A program made the translations under genes and the position numbers. Shown here in pieces: positions 13,348 to 24,231 of a DNA stretch of 24,231 nt (within the stretch, counting starts at the first letter, position 1; each line of letters starts with the position of its first letter). The notes below the pieces were generated by a model that saw only the letters and a program-made list of their open reading frames with translations, had not been told where the DNA came from and did not search any database. Source of the stretch: a virus. The DNA lies in the IMG/VR virus record IMGVR_UViG_3300034374_002780, positions 1 through 24,231 of that record; one strand, 5' to 3'.

Positions 13348-13992
13348 TTACCCCATCCGTGCGCCGCCGCTTTCAAGAGAACGCCCGCCCGGCGCCTGTG
13401 CAGCGTCAGGAGCGCGGGTTGTCCGGTCAAACCGGCGCTGCGTTGTTAGCTCATTCATGGCCGATGCTAGGTTTTCGCCATAAATACTAATCCGCTCTTG
13501 GTCCCGAATGTAAATGGCGGCTTCCATTGCGGCGCCGTACAAATACACATCAGGTGCATCTGTAATCAGCCAATTCGTCGTGTTCAGCGAAGTCAGCGCC
13601 GGAATGCGCTGGTAGTAATACAGGGTGGCAGAAACATTGGCAGAAGGCCGCACAATGATCGTGGTGCCCGAAATACCAACATATTGCGGATTGGCATTAG
13701 GGCGGTGACGAAACAGAAATTCATCGCTGTCTACATCAACAATTTCTGGAAAACTGGTCGGCGTTGTCGAGCAGGACAACATCTTGTATTCCAGAAAATC
13801 GGAAGGCAATGTAGCCTCACCATCAGCGTTCAAAGACAGTGCTGATGTTGTTTCCATATCGCGAGTGCGGATCAAACGATTAAACCGCGCTTCTGCCTGC
13901 GAAATGAAGCCTTCGACCTCATTATCCAGATCAGACCGGCCCAACAGGTCTGTTACCGCTGATTTCAGTGTTGAGAAATTCGTAATCGTCAT
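13348..13992 (-). CDS. SU10-type adaptor / head-tail connector paralog 1
   Basis: A 214-residue protein. The N-terminal helix pair (FSTLKSAVTDLLGRSDLDN, then FISQAEARFNRLIR) leads into LPSDFLEYK and a beta region. The block TTNWLITDAPDVYLYGAA and a helical, basic tail follow. This order is what I recall of portal-bound adaptor proteins of short-tailed phages. ATG 13992 has GGAG 8 nt upstream. It follows the glycosyltransferase gene by 5 nt. The family is well supported; stoichiometry and exact location are inferred. Confidence 0.75.
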   Translation of the reverse strand: MTITNFSTLKSAVTDLLGRSDLDNEVEGFISQAEARFNRLIRTRDMETTSALSLNADGEATLPSDFLEYKMLSCSTTPTSFPEIVDVDSDEFLFRHRPNANPQYVGISGTTIIVRPSANVSATLYYYQRIPALTSLNTTNWLITDAPDVYLYGAAMEAAIYIRDQERISIYGENLASAMNELTTQRRFDRTTRAPDAAQAPGGRSLESGGARMG

Positions 13993-13997
13993 ATCGG

Positions 13998-14648
13998 CTA
14001 CTCCGCTGCCTCTTTGCCCTCAACATCTTTCAACATGAAAGCATGTTCACTTGAGAACTCAAACGTCCCGGCATGACGGACACTCTGCGATAGATCGTGG
14101 TCAATCATAACCTTGTGACCCGCTTGCCGCAACTGCCCGCAAAAATAAATGTCCTCACCCTGAAACTGATTGGTCCGGGGGGAGTAACCAATCATAAACC
14201 ACGGTAAGGACAAATCCTTGAGAATGTCAGCCTTCACCATAAAGACACCCATACCCACCGCCAAACATTCTTCAAGCCCCGTGCTGTCTGGGGCGGTATA
14301 AAGGTATTCATCCAACATAGGGCTGGTGAAGGCGACAGGGTGCGTTGGCGCATTCCTTGTTGAGTAATTAGACGCTACAACAGGAACATCATGCGCCATT
14401 AACCGCTGAATTGTGTCTTTTGGAAACCGCATATCACTGTCCAGGAACAAGATATAATCGGCATTATTTTCAAGCGCCCGGAAAGCCAAATCTTGCCTTT
14501 GATCGGCAATTAGCGTGCCCGCACTGTGTAACAACACAACACGATCATCAGTATGTTTCATATGAAACCCTACCATTTTCGCCAAATCCAGCGAAAACAT
14601 GGTATTCACTTCGTCACGGGCTGGTACACATACAGCAATCGTCGGCAT
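13998..14648 (-). CDS. GT-A (GT2-like) glycosyltransferase
   Basis: This 216-residue protein has a GT-A fold opening (IAVCVPARDEVNTMFSLDLA) and the metal/nucleotide-sugar motif ILFLDSDMRFP with D70-S-D72. A later GEDIYFC segment is consistent with the acceptor/catalytic acidic region of GT2-like enzymes. It would transfer a sugar from an activated nucleotide-sugar to a virion protein, host glycan or DNA-linked acceptor, none of which can be identified here. It has no membrane segment. ATG 14648 overlaps the previous stop (TAATG) with AGGGG upstream. A glycosyltransferase between capsid and adaptor genes is the odd feature. Confidence 0.8.
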   Translation of the reverse strand: MPTIAVCVPARDEVNTMFSLDLAKMVGFHMKHTDDRVVLLHSAGTLIADQRQDLAFRALENNADYILFLDSDMRFPKDTIQRLMAHDVPVVASNYSTRNAPTHPVAFTSPMLDEYLYTAPDSTGLEECLAVGMGVFMVKADILKDLSLPWFMIGYSPRTNQFQGEDIYFCGQLRQAGHKVMIDHDLSQSVRHAGTFEFSSEHAFMLKDVEGKEAAE

Positions 14649-14956
14649 TAAACGTCCCCTGGTCGTGTTCTGAAAAAGCGGTTATCTGGATCATTGAGCC
14701 ATTTCTTTAGCTCATTTTGATCGTCGATAATCCCCTTCTGTTTTAATTCAAAGAAAAGGTGCAAAGGAATAGAAGCAACAAGCTGACCGTCACCCCACCG
14801 GGTAGGTGCATCATTAAATCGGGCCTTGTTGAAGTCAAGCAACGGCTCTGCGTCCTGCTGCTTCTCAAGAACAAACGTGTCATCGTCAGAATTATAGTGA
14901 AAAAAGGTCGATATTCCCGTTCTTGGATCAACCTCAAAAAGTCTCTTGTCAGACAA
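14648..14956 (-). CDS. Small conserved protein downstream of the capsid gene
   Basis: I choose TTG 14956, preceded at 5 nt by AGAAGGGGG, giving a 102-residue protein that starts with MSDKRLFEVDPRTG. Longer starts would translate through the hairpin at 14976-14997. Residues 17-50 (FHYNSDDDTFVLEKQQD, then LDFNKARFNDAPTRWGD) and the C-terminus (KKWLNDPDNRFFRTRPG) match a small protein often encoded after phage capsid genes. Its role is not established; capsid-related assembly is plausible from position. Confidence 0.68.
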   Translation of the reverse strand: MSDKRLFEVDPRTGISTFFHYNSDDDTFVLEKQQDAEPLLDFNKARFNDAPTRWGDGQLVASIPLHLFFELKQKGIIDDQNELKKWLNDPDNRFFRTRPGDV

Positions 14957-14975
14957 GATAGCCCCCTTCTGTGAG

Positions 14976-14997
14976 TGAGGGGGCCGAAGCCCCCTCA
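14976..14997 (-). terminator. Stable C(UUCG)G hairpin after the capsid gene
   Basis: On the coding strand the sequence is a 9-bp perfect stem (TGAGGGGGC with GCCCCCTCA) closed by a TTCG loop, the extra-stable UUCG tetraloop in its usual C-G context. It starts 13 nt after the major capsid stop. No T-run follows, so a strong factor-independent terminator is unlikely. A partial attenuator, RNA-processing site or 3' stabiliser for capsid mRNA fits better. Confidence 0.7.
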
Positions 14998-15010
14998 AAC
15001 CATGACTTCA

Positions 15011-15976
15011 CTAGGAAGTGGTCAAGTCAGCGGCAATACCGCAAGAGGCTTCTGCCCCGACTTCCAGACCATATTCACAGATAATCATGCGCTTTTCAGC
15101 ATCGCCAGTCTTTGCAAGCTGCTCCTGCGTCATAGGACGCAGTTCACGCACTGCCAGATGTGAAAAGTCAATCACAAAGGCGTCACGCGCACGCTGGAAG
15201 CGATTGGGAACAATCGACAGGTTGCCAAAATCAGACACATAGATGTCTGCGGCGCCAATGATTGTTGACGCACGGTTGCCCCGCACGTTGAACCGCTGAC
15301 CAGCAATACCAGTGAAGGCAGAAACAGCCTGCTTGTTGAAAGTGCCAACCATCAGGGTTGATGGATTACCGCCTTCGTCATAAACCTGCTTCACAACATC
15401 CTTAAGGATGGTTTCGGTAAATGCACGCTGCGTACCGTCAGTACGGGCCGCATTCACAATACCACCGGAAACAGTCGGATCAGAACCACCAGAACCAGCG
15501 TTGGTGTTGGTCCGAAGGAAGGCAGGAAGGCCAGCCGTAGTACGGGCTGTTGTCGTATTACCAGCGCCTGCGGCCTGGTTATACAGCAAGATTGCTTCCA
15601 TATCGCGCTTCAGTTCAGAACCACGCTTGGCAAGCTGATAAGACAGTTCAGACTTGCGCCCGGCCTTGTCCACAACTTCCGTCGTTCCTGAAATCACAAC
15701 ATCCTTGCGGCTGATCTGCGTATAGTTACCCAACCGTGTGGTCGGCGTAACAGCGGCAAACGATGCAACATCGTCACCATCAAGAACAGCATTGGATGTA
15801 CTGGCTGCGTTCAATGCATCAGACTGCCATTCAAACAAGGTCTGTTTGGCTGACTTTCGGGCTGCATTGGAAATAAACGGTGTTTCTTCCGGGCTGATAT
15901 TATAGATAATATCAGACAGGTCTTCACGAATACCCACCGCGTCGTATGTCGTGAATGTATTTGCTACGATAGCCAT
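15011..15976 (-). CDS. Major capsid protein, SU10/DUF5309-like
   Basis: A 321-residue protein. The N-terminal block TTYDAVGIREDLSDIIYNIS, then PEETPFISNAARKS, is the hallmark of the DUF5309/SU10-type major head protein. Further segments fit this HK97-fold family: RLGNYTQISRKDVVISGTTE, YQLAKRGSELKRDMEAILL and the C-terminal KRMIICEYGLEVGAEAS. It forms the icosahedral shell. It follows the scaffold gene by 11 nt and has AGGAG before ATG 15976. The strong hairpin immediately downstream may favour capsid transcript abundance. Confidence 0.9.
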   Translation of the reverse strand: MAIVANTFTTYDAVGIREDLSDIIYNISPEETPFISNAARKSAKQTLFEWQSDALNAASTSNAVLDGDDVASFAAVTPTTRLGNYTQISRKDVVISGTTEVVDKAGRKSELSYQLAKRGSELKRDMEAILLYNQAAGAGNTTTARTTAGLPAFLRTNTNAGSGGSDPTVSGGIVNAARTDGTQRAFTETILKDVVKQVYDEGGNPSTLMVGTFNKQAVSAFTGIAGQRFNVRGNRASTIIGAADIYVSDFGNLSIVPNRFQRARDAFVIDFSHLAVRELRPMTQEQLAKTGDAEKRMIICEYGLEVGAEASCGIAADLTTS

Positions 15977-15987
15977 GATGGCTTCTC

Positions 15988-17004
15988 CTACAACATAGTT
16001 TCGATTACACTGGCCGCATCATTCAGCGTACCAGTCTTTGCAAGACGCTGCTTGGCTCGTGTTGATTTGGAGACATTACGCTTTTGCTGCGCATCAGAAG
16101 AACCAGGTCGCATATTTTTCGACGGCTTAACGCGCTTTTTCACCACGCGCTTCTGGCCTTTGTCGTAAAGCCATGCTTTTCGCATCATCCCAAGCATATC
16201 GGCGTTATCAATGCCTTCCACTGCGTCTTCGGTCATACCCTGATCCAGCGCCCAACTTTTAATTTGGGTTAGCTCGTCAGCCATGACCTTCTGGTCGCCC
16301 CATTCAGAGACAACAGACGGCAACCGCTCGATTTCAGATGCAACATGATGCTGATACCGCGCCTGCGCGTCCTGCTGGATTGCCGCATTCACCCGCTCTT
16401 GTTCAGAACGAATAGCTAACAGCTTTTCCTGTTGGGCCGCATTACGCTTATCCCATTCATGCTTTACCTGTGTCGCCCGAATTGGGTCTGTCTCAAACAT
16501 TGCATCCAGATCAGGCGCTTCTTCCATTGTGCTTTGCAATTGGGCCTCTAAAAGCGGCAAAAGATGTGCGTACTGTTGACGCTCACCCTCAATGCTACTC
16601 CGAAGGCTATCCATATCCTTGCGCTGCTCCGCAAGAGCCATTGTCTTGCGTGTGTAATCCTGGGTCCGGCTGTAACCGTCCAACAGTTCATCAATCGTTA
16701 CCTCAAGTTCTTCGCCATCAACTTTTACGGCGTAGACCTCTGTCTGGTCGTCTTCACTGTCTTCGGCTTCACCTTCTTCTGGATCACCTTCATCGTCATC
16801 TGTTTCAGGGTCGGCTTCGTCCGTTTCCACTTCAACATCGTCTTCGATGTTCTCAAGCTGGTCATCAGCTTGTGGGCTATCGCCCTGATCGCCGCCTTCT
16901 TCGTTATCCTCTACAGGGTCCAGAAGATCGGCAATCTGACTTGCTGCATCACTTACTCCGATCCCGATTTCAGCACCGGGGTTGTCGGCATCATTGATGT
17001 CCAT
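15988..17004 (-). CDS. Scaffold protein
   Basis: A 338-residue protein with an extremely acidic N-terminus (residues 25-90, nearly all D/E/G/S). The motif VKVDGEELEVTIDELLDGYS with RTQDYTRKT follows at about 93-122, a pattern widely found in phage scaffolding proteins. The centre (120-270) is long, helical and glutamine-rich, and the C-terminus is basic (KKRVKPSKNMRPGSSDAQQK), as expected for the part that touches capsid protein. It is placed immediately before the major capsid gene. ATG 17004 has GGAG upstream. No protease motif is visible. Confidence 0.85.
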   Translation of the reverse strand: MDINDADNPGAEIGIGVSDAASQIADLLDPVEDNEEGGDQGDSPQADDQLENIEDDVEVETDEADPETDDDEGDPEEGEAEDSEDDQTEVYAVKVDGEELEVTIDELLDGYSRTQDYTRKTMALAEQRKDMDSLRSSIEGERQQYAHLLPLLEAQLQSTMEEAPDLDAMFETDPIRATQVKHEWDKRNAAQQEKLLAIRSEQERVNAAIQQDAQARYQHHVASEIERLPSVVSEWGDQKVMADELTQIKSWALDQGMTEDAVEGIDNADMLGMMRKAWLYDKGQKRVVKKRVKPSKNMRPGSSDAQQKRNVSKSTRAKQRLAKTGTLNDAASVIETML

Positions 17005-17016
17005 GCAAAAACTCCA

Positions 17017-17271
17017 TTACGTTTCTTTGTTTATCACCTGTTGCGCGAATTTTCCGTTTTCCATAACGGCACGCAACCTTGTCTCTACCTCACCTATCGC
17101 CTTGTATTGGCGATAAATAAATTCCCGCTTCAGAATCTGGTGCCAGGACGTTGATTTCCAAGCCTCAAACAAATCGAGCGAAACCTGCTCTACAGCCCCT
17201 CGGTAAATTTCATCAGACAGTATTCTTTCTGCCTGTTTACCTTGGGCGGCTAGTTCATAATCTTTAGCCAT
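17017..17271 (-). CDS. Small post-portal protein
   Basis: An 84-residue charged helical protein beginning MAKDYELAAQGKQAERIL. ATG 17271 overlaps the portal stop by 8 nt (ATGGCTAA) and has AAGGG close upstream, so I prefer it to a frame start at 17316. The pattern SLDLFEAWKSTSWHQ, then FIYRQYKAIGEVETRLRAVM, then GK near the end, matches small proteins commonly found after the portal gene in short-tailed phages. Their role is unclear. Confidence 0.68.
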   Translation of the reverse strand: MAKDYELAAQGKQAERILSDEIYRGAVEQVSLDLFEAWKSTSWHQILKREFIYRQYKAIGEVETRLRAVMENGKFAQQVINKET

Positions 17272-19369
17272 TCGGCCCTTCTTTGTTTTGTCGCGCCGCA
17301 TTTCTTTCGCGCTCAATATCCGCTTTTATTAGCTGCACGTCAACTGCTGCACCCCAACGGGCCTCAATTTCAGCGGCACGAAGGCGAATATCGGCATCCA
17401 ATTTATCTCGCTCAAGATCATCCTTCATCAATGCTTCCTGGCGCTCAAGGTCAATCTTATTGGCGTCATTCATCGCATCAGCCTGCGCTTTTGTCGCCTC
17501 TGCCTGTGCAATAATCATATTCGGGTCAGGCTGCGCTGGCTCTGGTGGCGGCGGTGTCCATTGCGCCGGGTCAACAAAGAACTTTTCAGGCGACTTGAAG
17601 CCCATCAATTCCGTCATTGCGGCCAGCGTGTTGCGATATTCCTGCAAACCGGCAATAGGATTTTGTGGCCCCATCGCCTGAATAGCCTGCTCCTGCTTGT
17701 CAGCAATAGCCGATAAATAGGTCATTTTGGCCTCAAGGTCGCCAATACCCAACCCGACATTCACGGAAACATCCATGCCAGCGTCCCATGCCCGTGGGTC
17801 GATTTCTACCCACTTGCCACGAAGACGAACAACACGCGGCCTATCCTGATTGGCAACCGTCAATTTCAAGATGCCACGGAACAGCGGAACAAGCCCCATT
17901 TCAGCAAAAATACGCCCAATCAACTCTGTACGCTCCTGCGCAGAGGAAAGAGTTGCGGCAACAGCGGCCCGCGTCGAAGATTGCAAGGCGTCAGGGTCCA
18001 AACCAACAGCGGCCTTGGTAATGCCTGTGCGGTTTTCCCGCATATTGTCCATGTATTCCAGCGCAGAGAAGCCGTGCTGACCAACAAAAGGTGTTTCAAG
18101 CGGGAACGCCATACCCGGCTGGCGCATACGAACAACAGCGCCAACTTCCGTGTTCAGCACGTCGTCCATATTCACCATGCCTTCAACAACACCCATTCGC
18201 GGCGTTGTGGCCAAAGCCAGGCTGTCCAGAACATTCCGCATGACGCTGGATTTAATAAGCTGAATATCGTCCACGTTGTCGCCTACGCCCGTGCCCAACC
18301 ATGTATGCGGTTCAGGGTCAGGGCAAAGATCGACAAACGGACAGAACGGCACTTCCTCATTGGCAACAATGTTCTTGCTGTCACCAATCACACAAATCTT
18401 GCGCAATTCCGCGAAACCGTCACCGTCATAATCGACGCGGATATAGGTTTCGGCGTAAAACACCAACTCCATGCTTTCATGGGCGGCACGATCAGTCGGC
18501 ACCATTTCATCAATGCGGCGTGCCTGCCGGTCCATCGAATATTCCAACTTGTCAGAACCCGTATGGTCCCGCACCATTTCGTAGTCGTAGCCCATTTCAA
18601 CCAGATCAGAGACCGTCACAAGCGACTGGTGCCCGACCATCAGAGCATCTTCAATAGACGTGGCACGACTGGAAATAACAAATTCTTCTGGCGGCACGGA
18701 CGCCACCTTGACCCGACCATTCGATATTTCACGGGACAGGCGAACATCATATGTTTCCATACCCATTTCATCGGCGGTCATATTAACGACCTCAATGGTC
18801 AATTCCGGGTCGGCGCCCAAAACGGCCATATCAATCTGGTCGATGCCTGAAAGCTCCCACGCTTCGACCTCAAGGCTTTCATCCCACCAGTATTTAATAA
18901 TCCCGGTTTTCAGCAACAAGGCGTCCTTGAACGCCTCATAGAACACCTTGAACCCCGGATTGTCGTTCTGGATGATGTAATTGACATAATCCGTTGCCTG
19001 TCGGGCCGCTTCGTCATCCCCCGGCCCCTTCGGGACAAACTCGACGATATTTTGCGCACCAAAGAACATGCGCATCAATCCCGGCATCATTGCTTGGATC
19101 GTGTCCCGAACATCACGGGATATAACCTGGCTGCGACCATCTTCCTCATTACCAAACGGCCTGCCGTGGTAATAATTCAGCAACCGCGCCCGTTCTGTTG
19201 AAAGAAAGCCCTCTTGCCACGTTTGGGCGTCTTCAAGCTCACGCTTGACGATACCTTCCAGTTCTTCAAGCGTGATCGGGCCTTCCTCCATCATTTCAGG
19301 ATCGGATGCGCCACCCGCAATTTCATCCATTGCTTCTTCAAGGATTTCTGCCGCCTCTAACGCATCCAT
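17264..19369 (-). CDS. Portal protein
   Basis: A 701-residue protein. It has an acidic N-terminus, then ERARLLNYYHGRPFGNEEDG, SQVISRDVRDTIQAMMPGLM and RMFFGAQNIVEF, which are typical of P22/SU10-type portals. Conserved later blocks include LLLKTGIIKYWWDE, CPFVDLCPDPEPHTWLGTG and TGITKAAVGLDPDAL. The last 100 residues (from about 600) form a long polar helix rich in A, E, K and R. It is the gatekeeper ring through which DNA is packaged by the terminase encoded two genes upstream. Start ATG 19369 has AGGGGC upstream. Length matches large portals of short-tailed phages. Confidence 0.88.
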   Translation of the reverse strand: MDALEAAEILEEAMDEIAGGASDPEMMEEGPITLEELEGIVKRELEDAQTWQEGFLSTERARLLNYYHGRPFGNEEDGRSQVISRDVRDTIQAMMPGLMRMFFGAQNIVEFVPKGPGDDEAARQATDYVNYIIQNDNPGFKVFYEAFKDALLLKTGIIKYWWDESLEVEAWELSGIDQIDMAVLGADPELTIEVVNMTADEMGMETYDVRLSREISNGRVKVASVPPEEFVISSRATSIEDALMVGHQSLVTVSDLVEMGYDYEMVRDHTGSDKLEYSMDRQARRIDEMVPTDRAAHESMELVFYAETYIRVDYDGDGFAELRKICVIGDSKNIVANEEVPFCPFVDLCPDPEPHTWLGTGVGDNVDDIQLIKSSVMRNVLDSLALATTPRMGVVEGMVNMDDVLNTEVGAVVRMRQPGMAFPLETPFVGQHGFSALEYMDNMRENRTGITKAAVGLDPDALQSSTRAAVAATLSSAQERTELIGRIFAEMGLVPLFRGILKLTVANQDRPRVVRLRGKWVEIDPRAWDAGMDVSVNVGLGIGDLEAKMTYLSAIADKQEQAIQAMGPQNPIAGLQEYRNTLAAMTELMGFKSPEKFFVDPAQWTPPPPEPAQPDPNMIIAQAEATKAQADAMNDANKIDLERQEALMKDDLERDKLDADIRLRAAEIEARWGAAVDVQLIKADIERERNAARQNKEGPNG

Positions 19370-19381
19370 TTTTAGCCCCTG

Positions 19382-20155
19382 CTAGTCAGCTTCTACCGGC
19401 ATGTGCCAGTATTTCCAGCCGTCATATTCTGAAATATTGACCTCAACGCCCAATACTTCCCTCACGGCATCCCCAACGCCTTTCATTGGGTAATCGTCAC
19501 CGCCAATAATGCCACCAGCCTTCACTTTAGGCAACCACGCGACAATATCACGCTTTACGGTGTGATAATCATGCCCTGCATCCAGCCAAACAAAGTCAAT
19601 CGAACCATCCTTGAACTTACTGGCGGCTTTTTCGCTGTCAGACGTGTGAACTGTCAAATCCAGCCCCGCCTGAACACACGGCTTCATGTTTTCTTCAAAC
19701 ACAGCCTTCAAATTCCGCACTTCCGGGTCATTCTTGTGTGCGTCTTCATCCGACCCTTGGAAATGGTCAACACAATGAAAGGCAATATCCTTGCCGCTGT
19801 TCAGGATTTCTACGCCCATATAAGCGGCACTTTGGCCCTTCCAGCACCCAACCTCCACAAAAGTCGCTTCCTGCCCTGCACGGGCCACCATTTCGCCGTA
19901 AAACAGATGAAATTTGCACCACCCCTGAATGTTCTGCCAGTAATGAGGTGGAATTGTCACAGAAGCCGCCCTTTCTGCTTTTTTAGGGGCTTTAGGCTCT
20001 GGCGCTAGTTCCGGCTTGCGGTCTTCCTGGGCGACAACTTGCTCATTGGCAACCGGCTTTACCGTTTCATGCGCCTCAAGTGGACGCTTCCGGGGGCGCC
20101 CGCGCTTGCGTTTTGGCTGCGGAATACCCTTATCATTGGTGACAATCTCGTTCAT
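19382..20155 (-). CDS. Class I SAM-dependent methyltransferase with AT-hook
   Basis: A 257-residue protein of the Methyltransf_24 kind. SAM motif I is FVEVGCWKGQSAAYM (99-113) and motif II ends at D130. FVWLDAGHDYHTVKRDI (188-204) and KAGGIIGGDDY (212-222) supply the usual acidic and His residues. Family members often methylate small molecules or sugars. The basic N-terminal extension carries an AT-hook-like core, KRKRGRPRKRP (15-25), followed by a Pro/Glu/Lys-rich linker, which suggests contact with DNA or another polyanion. The start overlaps the terminase stop (ATGA). The methyltransferase fold is secure; substrate is unknown. Confidence 0.82.
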   Translation of the reverse strand: MNEIVTNDKGIPQPKRKRGRPRKRPLEAHETVKPVANEQVVAQEDRKPELAPEPKAPKKAERAASVTIPPHYWQNIQGWCKFHLFYGEMVARAGQEATFVEVGCWKGQSAAYMGVEILNSGKDIAFHCVDHFQGSDEDAHKNDPEVRNLKAVFEENMKPCVQAGLDLTVHTSDSEKAASKFKDGSIDFVWLDAGHDYHTVKRDIVAWLPKVKAGGIIGGDDYPMKGVGDAVREVLGVEVNISEYDGWKYWHMPVEAD

Positions 20156-21567
20156 ACGACACCTTTTACCCTTCGTTTTATTGGTTTCGACCAGTTTCCA
20201 TTATAGGACGTTCCATAAATGGCAACTGCGGCTTCTGTGGCCATCGTCAATGCCACCGCATCACCGCGATCAGGGGAAGAAAAGCCACGACGCTTCATGT
20301 CTTCCTTGCTTTCCAGCTTCATACGGCCATTGGACGTGAAACTATACTTTGGCGTGACCAAATCCGCAAATAACCCTTCATCATTGGGAATGCGGCAGTC
20401 TCTTTTCTCCAAAAAACCCTTCAAACTGCCCCATAATTCAGCCCGAAGGTTAATATATCCGCTTTTCATGCTGGGATTTTCAGAAACATTGATGTCTCTG
20501 GCCGGTAATCCCAATTCTCGCAGTCGATCACACACACCAGCACCCACACCGATGCTATCAACCAGTATTTCGACCGGCTTTGTTTCGGCATTGTCGTATA
20601 ATTGCTTTACAAAGCCGACAACCTGCATCAAATCAAGCTGCTTTTTAACCTCAAGTGGGTGAATTGTCTTGCCCTGGCGGCGTGCCAGCACCGTGCTATC
20701 CGAACCAAACCGGGCCACGTCCAGACCCCACACTTCTGGTGCCATAACATCCAGTTCAATATCACGCTTCATGGCGCTTTCGACTAGTTCCAGCGGGATC
20801 ATGGTATCATCATCACGAACCGGGAACTCGCCAAGCACGCGGACACGGAAAACATTACTTTCTTCGCCGTGCCGCTGCGCCTGTTCTTCGATATATTCCT
20901 TGGAAACACGCGGGCTGTCTTCACAGGACACCCGCATCGTCCACCACCCCTCTTTCAAGCGCGTATGCGTGTCAAAAAACAAGCCAGATGTTCGTGTTGG
21001 ATTGCCCAACAAGATCGTCGTCGCATTATGGCCCGACATTGACCCGCTTGCGGCCTCAAACACTTGTTCTGGAATACCAGACGCTTCATCGCCAATCAGC
21101 AACACATTGTCAGAATGAACGCCCTGCAAGGCTTCCGGTGTTTCAGATCGGGACGTTTTAGCGGCCACAAAACTCTCGGAAGGTGCCGCTAGAAGCTCAA
21201 TTCGCTCTGATTTTACGTCCAAAAGCACTTTAACCGGCTCTTGCAGCTTGTTAATCCAGCTTTTGACCTCTGAAAACAGCGCATCGAACAACTGGCTGGA
21301 TGTTGGCGCCGTAATCACTGTTTTTTGCGGAAAACGGAACAATAAATGCCAAACCACCAGCCATGACGCTACCGCCGACTTGCCCACGCCATGACCTGAC
21401 CGGACAGAAATGCGTCTTTCGCCCTTGGCCACCGCCTCTAGCAGTTTGGCCTGCCATTCATCCGGCGTAACGCCCAATTCATAGGTCACAAAAGCAACAG
21501 GGTCGTCGGCATATGCCGCGATCCATTCTTCCATGATCGCGACGGCACTTTCAGCGGTTTCAGCCAT
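20152..21567 (-). CDS. terL: Terminase large subunit
   Basis: A 471-residue DNA-packaging motor. The ATPase part has Walker A GHGVGKS (58-64) and Walker B VLLIGDEAS (D160, E161), with coupling region ILLGNPTRTSG. The nuclease part has GLDVARFGSD (D283), VDSIG (D337) and SPDRGDAV (D433, D436), the usual metal-binding acids of the RNase H-like domain that cuts concatemeric DNA. ATG 21567 overlaps the small-subunit stop by 8 nt (ATGGCTGA). A TTG one codon upstream is less likely. It works with the portal encoded downstream. Confidence 0.93.
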   Translation of the reverse strand: MAETAESAVAIMEEWIAAYADDPVAFVTYELGVTPDEWQAKLLEAVAKGERRISVRSGHGVGKSAVASWLVVWHLLFRFPQKTVITAPTSSQLFDALFSEVKSWINKLQEPVKVLLDVKSERIELLAAPSESFVAAKTSRSETPEALQGVHSDNVLLIGDEASGIPEQVFEAASGSMSGHNATTILLGNPTRTSGLFFDTHTRLKEGWWTMRVSCEDSPRVSKEYIEEQAQRHGEESNVFRVRVLGEFPVRDDDTMIPLELVESAMKRDIELDVMAPEVWGLDVARFGSDSTVLARRQGKTIHPLEVKKQLDLMQVVGFVKQLYDNAETKPVEILVDSIGVGAGVCDRLRELGLPARDINVSENPSMKSGYINLRAELWGSLKGFLEKRDCRIPNDEGLFADLVTPKYSFTSNGRMKLESKEDMKRRGFSSPDRGDAVALTMATEAAVAIYGTSYNGNWSKPIKRRVKGVV

Positions 21568-22012
21568 CAATCACCTTACCACGTGACCGCAACGCATTCA
21601 GGTGCATTTCATTCAGGTTCAAATTGATGTTGATGCCGCCGTGGTCGTCACCATACTTCTCCGGGGCCAGGTTTTTGGCCATCCATCGACGGTTTTCAAC
21701 CCGAAGTTTAGCGCGATTGACCGCGCCATTATCAACACGTTCATTTCCTTCCGCGTCGATATAAATGCCCAAATCTTCATCATCCACAATTGATTGAATT
21801 TCCTCGATGCACTGGTCGGCGCGTATGGATTTCGCCTCTTTCCATGCATCAATGTTTTCTGGCCTGCGCAAATGCTTGCTTAAGGCCATAGCCGAAAATC
21901 CAAGGTCTTTTGCAATTTTGCTCAACCCTTCGCCGTCAACATAGCGCTTTATCAAGTAGTCAACCCCGCCGCGCTCTGCCAAAGCAGGCGCCAATGTTCC
22001 ATATTTCGACAT
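21560..22012 (-). CDS. terS: Terminase small subunit
   Basis: A 150-residue protein with a helix-turn-helix near residues 29-50 (GLSKIAKDLGFSAMALSKHL), as used by small terminase subunits to recognise packaging DNA. A charged helical oligomerisation region follows, then RWMAKNLAPEKYGD and an Asn-rich C-terminal tail that likely contacts the large subunit. ATG 22012 overlaps the previous stop by one base (TAATG) and has GGAGGG 6 nt upstream, so I reject the longer frame from 22054. Confidence 0.85.
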   Translation of the reverse strand: MSKYGTLAPALAERGGVDYLIKRYVDGEGLSKIAKDLGFSAMALSKHLRRPENIDAWKEAKSIRADQCIEEIQSIVDDEDLGIYIDAEGNERVDNGAVNRAKLRVENRRWMAKNLAPEKYGDDHGGININLNLNEMHLNALRSRGKVIDG

Positions 22013-22596
22013 TATGCACCCTCCAATACTGCATTTTGCTTCCGTGACGGCCATGCATCGACCTTATTCATCAGGGATGTGCGCAATTCTTCCGCGTCAA
22101 CGTCCAAAAGAAACGCCAATCGGGCCGTTTCGTCCTGATTCCCGAAGAAAATATCCTCAAACTTGAAGGCGTCGATGCACCAGCACCTCAAACGGGCATA
22201 CATTGTGGCAATTTCACCCACAAAGGCGTCAACATCGCCCCACGGGATCATTTTCGCCATATCATCGACGCGATTTTCCAGATCATGCCCCCGCAAGGAA
22301 GAAATCTGGTCTTCCGCGTTACGAAACAGCGGAATAATCACCATTCGACTGCCAAGATGCATCTTGAACATCGGCAACCAGATAAAAGTAGGCCATCCGG
22401 TGATAATCACGTCCTGGCGCTCGGATAACGACATCACCATGCGCAAAAACTCATAGGCTTTATCCGCATAGCGGAAATCACCCTTTATGCCCTCATGCAA
22501 TACCACCGCATCCGGGCGCAGACGCCCCAATGTGGCGCATAATGTCTGCGTGCCACACCGGCCCGCCGACAGAAAGAAATAGACTTTGTTTTTCAC
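22012..22596 (-). CDS. Sulfotransferase-like protein
   Basis: A 194-residue protein. FLSAGRCGTQTLCATL (8-23) matches the 5'-phosphosulfate-binding loop of PAPS-dependent sulfotransferases (S/A-GR-GT pattern), and IPLFRNAEDQISSL (88-101), with R92 and S99/S100, matches the 3'-phosphate-binding motif RNP-D-S. The family transfers sulfate from PAPS to hydroxyl or amino groups of sugars, peptides or lipids. It has no membrane segment. GTG 22596 follows GGGGGAAGAA. Placed directly before terS, it is out of keeping with the usual packaging module. It is shorter than typical sulfotransferases, so activity is unproven. Confidence 0.7.
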   Translation of the reverse strand: MKNKVYFFLSAGRCGTQTLCATLGRLRPDAVVLHEGIKGDFRYADKAYEFLRMVMSLSERQDVIITGWPTFIWLPMFKMHLGSRMVIIPLFRNAEDQISSLRGHDLENRVDDMAKMIPWGDVDAFVGEIATMYARLRCWCIDAFKFEDIFFGNQDETARLAFLLDVDAEELRTSLMNKVDAWPSRKQNAVLEGA

Positions 22597-22605
22597 TTCT
22601 TCCCC

Positions 22606-22791
22606 CTAGCTAACTACGGTCCATGTCACATCATCGCCATCTTCCACAGACCAAATGCCACTTTCACCGTTTTCCGGCGTCCACGTCACCGTGTCACCGT
22701 CTTCGGGCGACCATAAAATAGCCGCCAACCCAAACAGGACAAACTCACCCGAAGACCCGCCCAAACCAGATAAGACAAAAGCCCCACTCAT
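22606..22791 (-). CDS. Small Trp-repeat protein
   Basis: A 61-residue protein. A Gly-rich hydrophobic first part (residues 4-26) is followed by three and a half 10-residue repeats with Trp at 27, 37, 47 and 57: WSPEDGDTVT, WTPENGESGI, WSVEDGDDVT and WTVV. ATG 22791 overlaps the previous stop by 4 nt. It may be a small tail-associated or adhesin-like piece belonging with the large repeat protein before it. No family can be named with confidence. Confidence 0.55.
   Translation of the reverse strand: MSGAFVLSGLGGSSGEFVLFGLAAILWSPEDGDTVTWTPENGESGIWSVEDGDDVTWTVVS
22624..22713 (-). repeat. Three 10-residue Trp repeats
   Basis: Codons 27-56 of the 61-residue protein: three units of consensus W-[ST]-[PV]-E-[DN]-G-[DE]-x-x-x with exact 30-nt spacing, followed by a partial unit starting at Trp 57. 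DNA copies differ mostly at third positions, so the peptide pattern rather than recent copying seems conserved. Confidence 0.75.
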
Positions 22792-24231
22792 GTCGTGCGC
22801 GTAACCGTTTGCGGGTTATCAGCATCATCAACCGTAAAGGTCGCCGCCGCAGAACCGGAAATATCCGGCACCGTCAATGTCACACCCGACTTCGTAGGCT
22901 CCAGCACCCGCTGGTGCAGCATCATCATCGCTTGAGCCAGTGTCGGCACCACGCCATTCGCCGCGTAGCTCTCCGTAATCTGCGTCGTCAGGATGTCACC
23001 AACAGAAATATCGTTGAGCGCCGCAATCAGCCCCGGCACATCATCGGATTGTAGCTCGTTCGTATCGGCCTCAATATCAGCAACCGCCTTGCCCAGCGTC
23101 CCCGCCGTTGTGTGACCAGAAAGCGCCTCGTCCAACACCGCATCAGCAATCGCTGCTGCTGTGGGGTCGTTCAAATTGGTATTGGCCGTCAATGTGCGCG
23201 TTACCGCCGCCCATACATCGGCGGCTGCAATATCATTCAACCCGCTGATCTGCGCCGGAATAGTAGTTCCCGTATCCACAAGAACAGCGTCTACATTGCT
23301 GTCAACTGTCGCCAAGTTCGCAGCCGTGGCCAAGGCCGCATCGGCAATGGCAGTATCGACTTCCGCGTTGACTTGTGCCGCTGACAAGTCGTTCAGTGCT
23401 GCGATTAACCCCGGCACATTGTCACTCTGCAATTCGTTCGTGTCGGCCTCAATGTCTGATACTGCTTTACCCAAAGTCCCCGCTGTGGCGTGGCCTGCCA
23501 ATGCTTCATCCAACACTGCATCGGCAATATCCGCCGCCGTTGGATCATTCAGTGCAGCCAGACCAGCGTCAAGTTCGGCTTTCGTCGGGCCGTCATAGTC
23601 GGCGAGGGCTGTATCCACTTCCGCATTAACCTGGGCGGCTGAAATATCATTCAACCCGCTGATCTGCGCTGGAATAGTCGTGCCGGTATCCACAAGGATG
23701 GCGTCAACATTCGCGTCTACAGTCGCAAGGCTCGCCGCCGTTGCCAGTGCCGCGTCTGCGATGGCCGTGTCAACCTCTGCGTTGACCTGTGCCGCCGAAA
23801 GATTATTCAGGGCCGCAATATCGGCAGGCAACGATGTTCCTGTGTCAACCAGAATGGCGTCAACATTTGTGTCAACCGTTGCCAGAGCCGATGCCAGCGC
23901 TGCACTGTCTGTCCCCCGCATGAACCTGTTTTCAATCGAGAACGAACCAGCAACAAAGCTGACCGTCTGGCTGTCAATGGTCACGCTAGAAATAATCACA
24001 ACGTAATCATTCCCCGCTGCAAAGAAACCGGCATCCGTATTGTCGCTGGTATCAATCGAAATAGCGTGAATACCGGTAATCGTGTCAAAGTCCGTCGAGA
24101 CGGTGTACCCTGCATCGCTGCTGCGCTGGGTCGTGCCACCGTTCTTGTAAATCTCAATATCGCTGGTCGCCAGGCCGGTCAACGTAACAGACGCGCCATT
24201 GCTGTCGTAGCTGGCGAAGTTCAAATATACC
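22788..24231 (-). CDS. Repeat-rich tail/baseplate-like protein, 5' end cut by window edge
   Basis: A large protein whose reading frame runs to base 24231. The visible TTG at 24224 is probably not the start, since codons GTA and TAT continue upstream and related proteins have about a dozen residues before this point. The N-terminal 100 residues (NFASYDSNGASVTLTGLATS, IEIYKNGG, DTITGIHAISIDTSDNTD) form a beta domain common in phage tail or baseplate proteins. Residues 136-405 are Ala/Asp-rich tandem repeats, and residues 425-478 form a beta-rich C-terminus. It stands upstream of the terminase genes. It is likely a virion surface or fibre protein, by family resemblance. Confidence 0.72.
   Translation of the reverse strand, partial: VYLNFASYDSNGASVTLTGLATSDIEIYKNGGTTQRSSDAGYTVSTDFDTITGIHAISIDTSDNTDAGFFAAGNDYVVIISSVTIDSQTVSFVAGSFSIENRFMRGTDSAALASALATVDTNVDAILVDTGTSLPADIAALNNLSAAQVNAEVDTAIADAALATAASLATVDANVDAILVDTGTTIPAQISGLNDISAAQVNAEVDTALADYDGPTKAELDAGLAALNDPTAADIADAVLDEALAGHATAGTLGKAVSDIEADTNELQSDNVPGLIAALNDLSAAQVNAEVDTAIADAALATAANLATVDSNVDAVLVDTGTTIPAQISGLNDIAAADVWAAVTRTLTANTNLNDPTAAAIADAVLDEALSGHTTAGTLGKAVADIEADTNELQSDDVPGLIAALNDISVGDILTTQITESYAANGVVPTLAQAMMMLHQRVLEPTKSGVTLTVPDISGSAAATFTVDDADNPQTVTRTT
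23028..23405 (-). repeat. Long protein repeat, copy 2
   Basis: Residues 274-399, a 126-residue unit directly following copy 1. It keeps the same start and end patterns but loses 12 residues in the middle, where WAAVTRTLTANTN replaces the segment around DYDGPTKAELDAGL. Confidence 0.8.
23406..23819 (-). repeat. Long protein repeat, copy 1
   Basis: Residues 136-273 as counted from TTG 24224, a 138-residue unit. It starts IAALNNLSAAQVNAEVDTAI and ends with DIEADTNELQSDNVPGL. It contains shorter repeats LATVD-NVDAILVDTGT and LND-SAAQVNAEVDTA. Confidence 0.8.

Follow-up and report, generated by a model that had tools for sequence, protein, structure and literature searches.

A glycosyltransferase, a methyltransferase and a sulfotransferase-like protein encoded in the head operon of an environmental podovirus-like phage: a possible glycan-decorating set

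The window analyzed here is the entire viral contig of IMG/VR record IMGVR_UViG_3300034374_002780 (24,231 bp). Nearly all of its genes were encoded on the minus strand and make up the late genes of a podovirus-like phage belonging to the SU10/LUZ24/phiM5 head-module group. The large terminase (TerL) showed 53% identity to that of Sinorhizobium phage phiM5, and the gene order was the same as in phiM5. The genes described below all lay on the minus strand and are given in the direction of transcription. A gene for a sulfotransferase-like P-loop protein of 194 aa (hereafter ST; 22012..22596) was located between a 61-aa ORF and the small terminase gene (TerS; 21560..22012), followed by TerL (20152..21570), a Methyltransf_24-type SAM methyltransferase of 257 aa (MT; 19382..20155), the SU10-type portal (17264..19369), a small conserved head-module ORF assigned to phrog_8161 by PHROGs (17017..17316), a scaffold homologue recognized by its position and its homology to annotated relatives (15988..17004), the SU10-type major capsid protein (MCP; 15011..15976), a protein assigned to phrog_3982 (14648..14998), a GT-A glycosyltransferase of 216 aa (GT; 13998..14648), and the first connector, a tail-tube-A-like protein (13348..13992). 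In Pfam and PHROGs searches, the neighbors of ST, MT, and GT were identified as SU10 portal (1.2e-205), SU10 major capsid (4.1e-101), TerS (Sf6_terminase, 1e-14), and TerL (1.5e-08).

Each of the three enzyme genes occupied an optional slot of its own: ST was located before TerS, MT between TerL on the left and the portal on the right (slot A), and GT between the phrog_3982 protein on the left and the first connector on the right (slot B). ST started 9 bp after the stop codon of the 61-aa ORF, and its own stop overlapped the ATG of TerS by 1 nt (TAATG). MT overlapped TerL by 4 nt and was separated from the portal by 12 bp, while the ATG of GT overlapped the stop of the phrog_3982 protein by 1 nt and the connector followed 5 bp away. 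Hydrophobic segments suggestive of a membrane protein were absent from all three products, which appear to be soluble. Scans for promoters and terminators gave no signal above that of shuffled sequences, and the assignment of ST, MT, and GT to the operon is therefore based on gene packing. A preliminary description had placed the three enzymes among packaging, head, and connector genes, and this was confirmed by the intact ORFs, their tight junctions, and their genuine head-gene neighbors; both GT and MT thus lay within the structural operon.

By single-sequence search, the GT gave only a weak match (Anp1, 1.5e-07), and a profile built from 17 sequences matched Mnn9 (2.7e-07) and A197 of STIV (4e-05). 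Its structural model (pLDDT 93.4) adopted a GT-A fold, and the nearest solved folds were STIV A197 (2c0n; Z 19.6), residues 295-536 of LH3 (Z 19), Mnn9 (Z 17.2), and COLGALT1 (Z 17), which we take to belong mostly to protein-glycosylation systems. The superposition on A197 covered 170 residues with an rmsd of 2.3 and 20% identity. Foldseek matches also included 2p6w, a structure of a PBCV-1 capsid-glycosylation GT (E 2.1e-05), and the top viral structural match was a 788-residue phage protein annotated as FkbM methyltransferase. The window GT contained a DxD motif (D70-S-D72) and an acidic site (E165-D166), together with R98 and H192; D70, D72, E165, and D166 were intact in 140 of 142 GTs. The window GT is accordingly modeled as a glycosyltransferase of GT-A fold, with sugar transfer as its predicted activity.

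The MT matched Methyltransf_24 well above the curated cut-off (Pfam 4.5e-20, 72.9 bits against 26.3). It carried an N-terminal basic extension with the AT-hook-like motif RKRGRP, which was missing from the MT of contig L166, described below, and from most other homologues. In other phages, homologues of the MT domain were fused to GT25/RXYLT1 domains. A neighboring multi-domain protein carried WavE. The PHROG family of the MT is labeled "DNA methyltransferase".

In the ST, a 5'-PSB-like motif (SAGRCGTQTL) was read near the N-terminus and a 3'-PB-like motif (RNAEDQISSL) further on, and the Walker-A lysine of kinases was missing. Scans of viral contigs found a single relative, on contig L166, with 35-36% identity and with SAGRCGTQTL and R92/S100 conserved. 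The window protein had no Pfam match, and the L166 homologue matched Sulfotransfer_4 only below the cut-off (E = 0.15, 12.3 bits; cut-off 22.8). Since no match to a sulfotransferase family exceeded the cut-off, we refer to the protein as sulfotransferase-like and not as a family member. Its model showed a P-loop fold with low confidence; the best structural matches were kinases and a few sulfotransferases were among the matches, and a PDB profile search with the ST returned nothing meaningful. Judging from the motifs, the ST is a probable sulfate-adding enzyme, and this is the least certain of the three identities. Protein searches found no relatives in phage records (window and L166 proteins as queries) or in plasmids (L166 protein as query), and none were found in genome contigs. 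Likewise, a full-text literature search for a sulfotransferase in a comparable phage context returned nothing relevant. In L166, the ST gene was found at the same position before TerS, and MT and GT were also present, so that both ST-bearing contigs in the viral contig scans contained all three genes. ST is the unusual member of the three-enzyme set.

To place the three genes among related phages, contigs were gathered by similarity to the capsid, GT, MT, ST, or TerL, and their genes were mapped with window-seeded profiles. GT was found in 42 of 73 readable contigs sampled by MCP, nearly always in slot B and usually unaccompanied by the other two genes. Where it was lacking, the flanking genes almost abutted, with gaps of 0, 1, 8, 11, 23, -3, or -54 bp. 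Across this phage group, GT is an optional gene with a wide distribution. Among 135 backbone loci, 29 carried both GT and MT, 31 GT only, and 10 neither, and none carried MT only; the others were unreadable on one side. MT was thus present solely in GT-bearing phages (29/29 readable loci). In the MCP and MT scans, GT accompanied MT at all 26 MT-bearing loci and was present at 15 of 22 MT-less loci, a difference for which the Fisher test (p 0.002) ignores ancestry. Pair tests that respect ancestry, applied to the MT-GT association and to slot-A cargo, had 3-6 informative pairs and were underpowered; none was significant, the MT-GT association included. Slot A held other MT, GT25, or GT-like genes in 18 of 27 GT-bearing lineages vs. 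0 of 8 GT-lacking ones (dereplicated rows), a count that takes in cluster c3, GT-like by motif only. Considered as a second GT, cluster c3 was rejected: it had no Pfam, PHROG, or meaningful PDB profile match, and hhalign gave a probability of 1.2% with GT. Unrelated genes (DUF7178, LAGLIDADG-like, and fibre-like) were also hosted by slot A. A viral contig scan based on TerL added one near relative, lacking GT, MT, and ST. The MCP scan of genomes yielded prophage-like loci, many of them alphaproteobacterial, with GT in three and MT or ST in none. Further, neither sugar epimerase genes nor thymidylate-synthase-like genes (base hydroxymethylating) were found in 21 GT-bearing records, many of which are fragments.

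One clade of relatives carried GT in the TerL-portal slot adjoining MT, with the usual GT slot empty where it was readable. These relocated GTs formed a single clade (100/99 support), which indicates one relocation event. In a quick tree of portal and capsid, the window grouped with contig L020 and then with L166 (both 100 SH-aLRT). L020 and L019 were 99.99% identical and represent one genotype, sharing much of the window backbone. In this genotype ST was absent, the 61-aa ORF being followed by TerS after 8 bp, and an 877-aa DUF7178 ORF stood in place of MT. Its GT had NPD for DxD and DAE for GED, the sole such case among the 142 GTs, and the decay counts as a single event. In the simplest reading of these sequences, an ancestor carried the complete trio, after which ST and MT disappeared and GT was inactivated in the line leading to L019/L020. 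In the GT tree, however, the L020 protein formed a long branch that did not join the window GT, making replacement from another phage possible; ST may likewise have been gained independently.

Taken together, these data suggest that GT and MT, perhaps with ST, work together on a modified sugar for phage particles or for the host surface. The preliminary description had joined all three enzymes into one possible glycan-building or glycan-decorating set and proposed neighborhood co-occurrence as a check. The comparison supported that reading in part. In favor of a link between GT and MT, MT was confined to GT-bearing phages, GT had moved beside MT in one clade, and MT-GT fusions exist; a wider set is also in line with the two ST phages possessing all three genes and with the motif-less GT of the sister lineage devoid of ST and MT. 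A strict set of three is disfavored, as GT was common without MT or ST (31 loci) and stayed intact in many such phages, ST occurred in two contigs, and the ancestry-corrected association was not significant.

We therefore favor, with a probability of roughly 0.5, a late-expressed glycan-decoration set built around GT, with MT and ST as optional tailoring enzymes and a virion protein as the most likely target. The GT would take a nucleotide sugar supplied by the host, a source that fits the absence of sugar epimerase genes from GT-bearing records, and would link the sugar to an acceptor protein, most probably a virion protein undergoing assembly. The MT may then O-methylate the attached sugar, and in the window lineage ST may sulfate it from PAPS. 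GT would act alone in many relatives, and MT and ST would be optional additions, each from a cargo slot of its own. By shielding, the altered sugar on the surface could change particle recognition or adsorption. A virion protein is favored as the acceptor on account of the kinship of GT with protein glycosyltransferases and the presumed late co-expression, and the former leans toward the virion rather than the host surface as the site of the glycan. A more specific version, which we regard as doubtful, is modular tailoring: GT would prime a virion protein, and interchangeable MTs, extra GTs, and here ST would be swapped in and out of slots reserved for them in the head operon, giving even closely related phages differently methylated or sulfated coats. 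In that version, the loss of GT motifs where the tailoring enzymes are missing would mean that the GT product is useful there only when tailored.

The strongest competitor, somewhat unlikely in our view, is that the target lies not on the virion but on the host surface (LPS, capsule, or exopolysaccharide), which the enzymes would alter during infection, for instance to prevent superinfection or to keep progeny from sticking to debris. The GT25-type (LPS-biosynthesis-type) domains among slot-A cargo of relatives keep such a target possible, and the GT25/RXYLT1 domains fused to MT homologues, the WavE on the neighboring multi-domain protein, and the fact that sulfation and O-methylation of surface polysaccharides are well-known chemistries all count in the same direction. 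However, no gtr-type membrane protein or flippase was seen adjoining ST, MT, or GT, the three enzymes have no hydrophobic segments of their own, their expression would be late and together with the head genes, and most of the nearest folds of GT are protein glycosyltransferases.

It is unlikely that the three genes are unrelated morons, each having entered a mosaic operon on its own at a tolerant slot and each having a separate function. Their three different slots, the many loci with GT alone, the restriction of ST to two contigs, the unrelated genes also taken up by slot A, and the non-significant ancestry-corrected tests would all be expected from such arrivals, whereas the lack of any MT-positive, GT-negative phage among readable loci, the relocation of GT beside MT, the MT-GT fusions, and the coincidence of ST/MT absence with lost GT motifs in the sister lineage would not. 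Least probable by a wide margin is that GT and MT hypermodify bases of the phage DNA close to packaging, ST being unconnected with them. The adjoining terminase, the PHROG label of the MT family, and the RKRGRP extension of the window MT point to DNA, but the extension was not shared by L166 or most homologues, sugar enzymes are fused to MT homologues, and the absence of thymidylate-synthase-like genes (0/21 GT-bearing records) is at odds with the usual route by which glucosylated DNA is made.

To our knowledge, virion glycosylation has been documented in few phages, and here a GT is found in a fixed optional slot across a large group of environmental podoviruses. As related phages naturally occur with GT, without it, or with a catalytically altered copy, its role can be tested by comparison. 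If methyl and sulfate tailoring proves true, coat chemistry would be diversified through the exchange of small enzyme cassettes, and these phages would offer compact sugar-modification enzymes. As far as could be judged from our searches, a sulfated glycan on a phage coat would be without precedent.

The backbone of the window is closest to the head module of phiM5 (MF074189; PMC10386132) and LUZ24-like podoviruses, with the same order and 53-54% homology in TerL and MCP. In contrast to the window, phiM5 lacks GT; its GT region contains a GDSL/SGNH hydrolase that was detected in the phiM5 particle proteome, and the phiM5 ORF at the position of the phrog_3982 protein has likewise been recorded among the proteins of the particle. 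Glycosylation of mycobacteriophage virions is the subject of Freeman et al. (2023), as cited in PMC11256854 and PMC13313380. For the GT itself, the best structural match, STIV A197, is likewise a single-domain GT-A protein; it is essential and possibly glycosylates the capsid protein B345 (PMC10551542), but it originates from an archaeal virus and shares 20% identity with the window GT.

For the proposed set as a whole, the closest precedents are A064R of chlorovirus PBCV-1 and gp35-gp38 of Corndog. A064R combines two rhamnosyltransferases with an O-methyltransferase, all serving the capsid glycan (PMC7019647), and resembles the proposed window set in that a glycosyltransferase and a sugar O-methyltransferase cooperate on the glycan of the major capsid protein. 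Unlike the window set, A064R is a single protein with three domains and comes from a eukaryotic virus with further GTs, and sulfation is not mentioned in the excerpt considered (PMC7019647). Corndog, a cluster O mycobacteriophage, is an actinobacterial siphovirus whose genes are contiguous, and in the excerpt considered no sulfotransferase is mentioned; it is likened to the window by gene content and not by sequence (PMC4351075). As described there, its gp35-gp38 include glycosyltransferases as well as an O-methyltransferase and are encoded between the portal and protease genes, and the products were found in infected cells and not identified in purified virions (PMC4351075). Its authors propose that these proteins put methyl and glycan groups on the capsid (PMC4351075), and in Corndog, as in the window, methyltransferase and glycosyltransferase genes lie within the virion structural operon, with the portal as a neighbor.

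The optional cargo site between TerL and portal, which holds the Methyltransf_24 methyltransferase (MT) in the window, harbored a family of ~232 aa in related contigs (L113:4221-4922 and 14 homologues), with NDD, SDD, and HHVG motifs, that may represent a second, unrecognised GT-A-like family. Its gene was often followed by either of two unrelated methyltransferases (L156:4425-4982 or L153:4430-4945). Another family in this slot (300-350 aa; L017:5481-6446, L097:1569-2627, and L008:2912-3805) adjoined a GT25-type gene in two phages; no Pfam match was identified for it, and by eye it resembles beta-propeller glycosidases. In addition, a family of ORFs of 50-60 aa (cluster c1, 51 members) was repeatedly found between TerL and portal in most relatives, being encoded between the GT-A glycosyltransferase (GT) and MT genes in L142, L144, L167, and their relatives. 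In the window's sister lineage, an ORF of 877 aa that carries a DUF7178 domain (L019:3626-6259; same position in L020) was present between TerL and portal, in the place of MT.

The N-terminal extension of the window's MT (20062-20155, minus strand) contained an AT-hook-like motif, RKRGRP, which was missing in L166, the only other contig found with the sulfotransferase-like gene, and in the majority of homologues. Upstream in the window, a fibre-like 478-aa ORF (22788-24224) consisted of repeated units rich in alanine and aspartate, e.g., LNDISAAQVNAEVDTA; in the relatives L019 and L020, its length differed only due to contig ends.

The GT slot also takes other genes, since phiM5 (L005) encodes a GDSL/SGNH hydrolase (L005:7728-9038) in the region of GT in relatives; this hydrolase is included in the phiM5 particle proteome listing.
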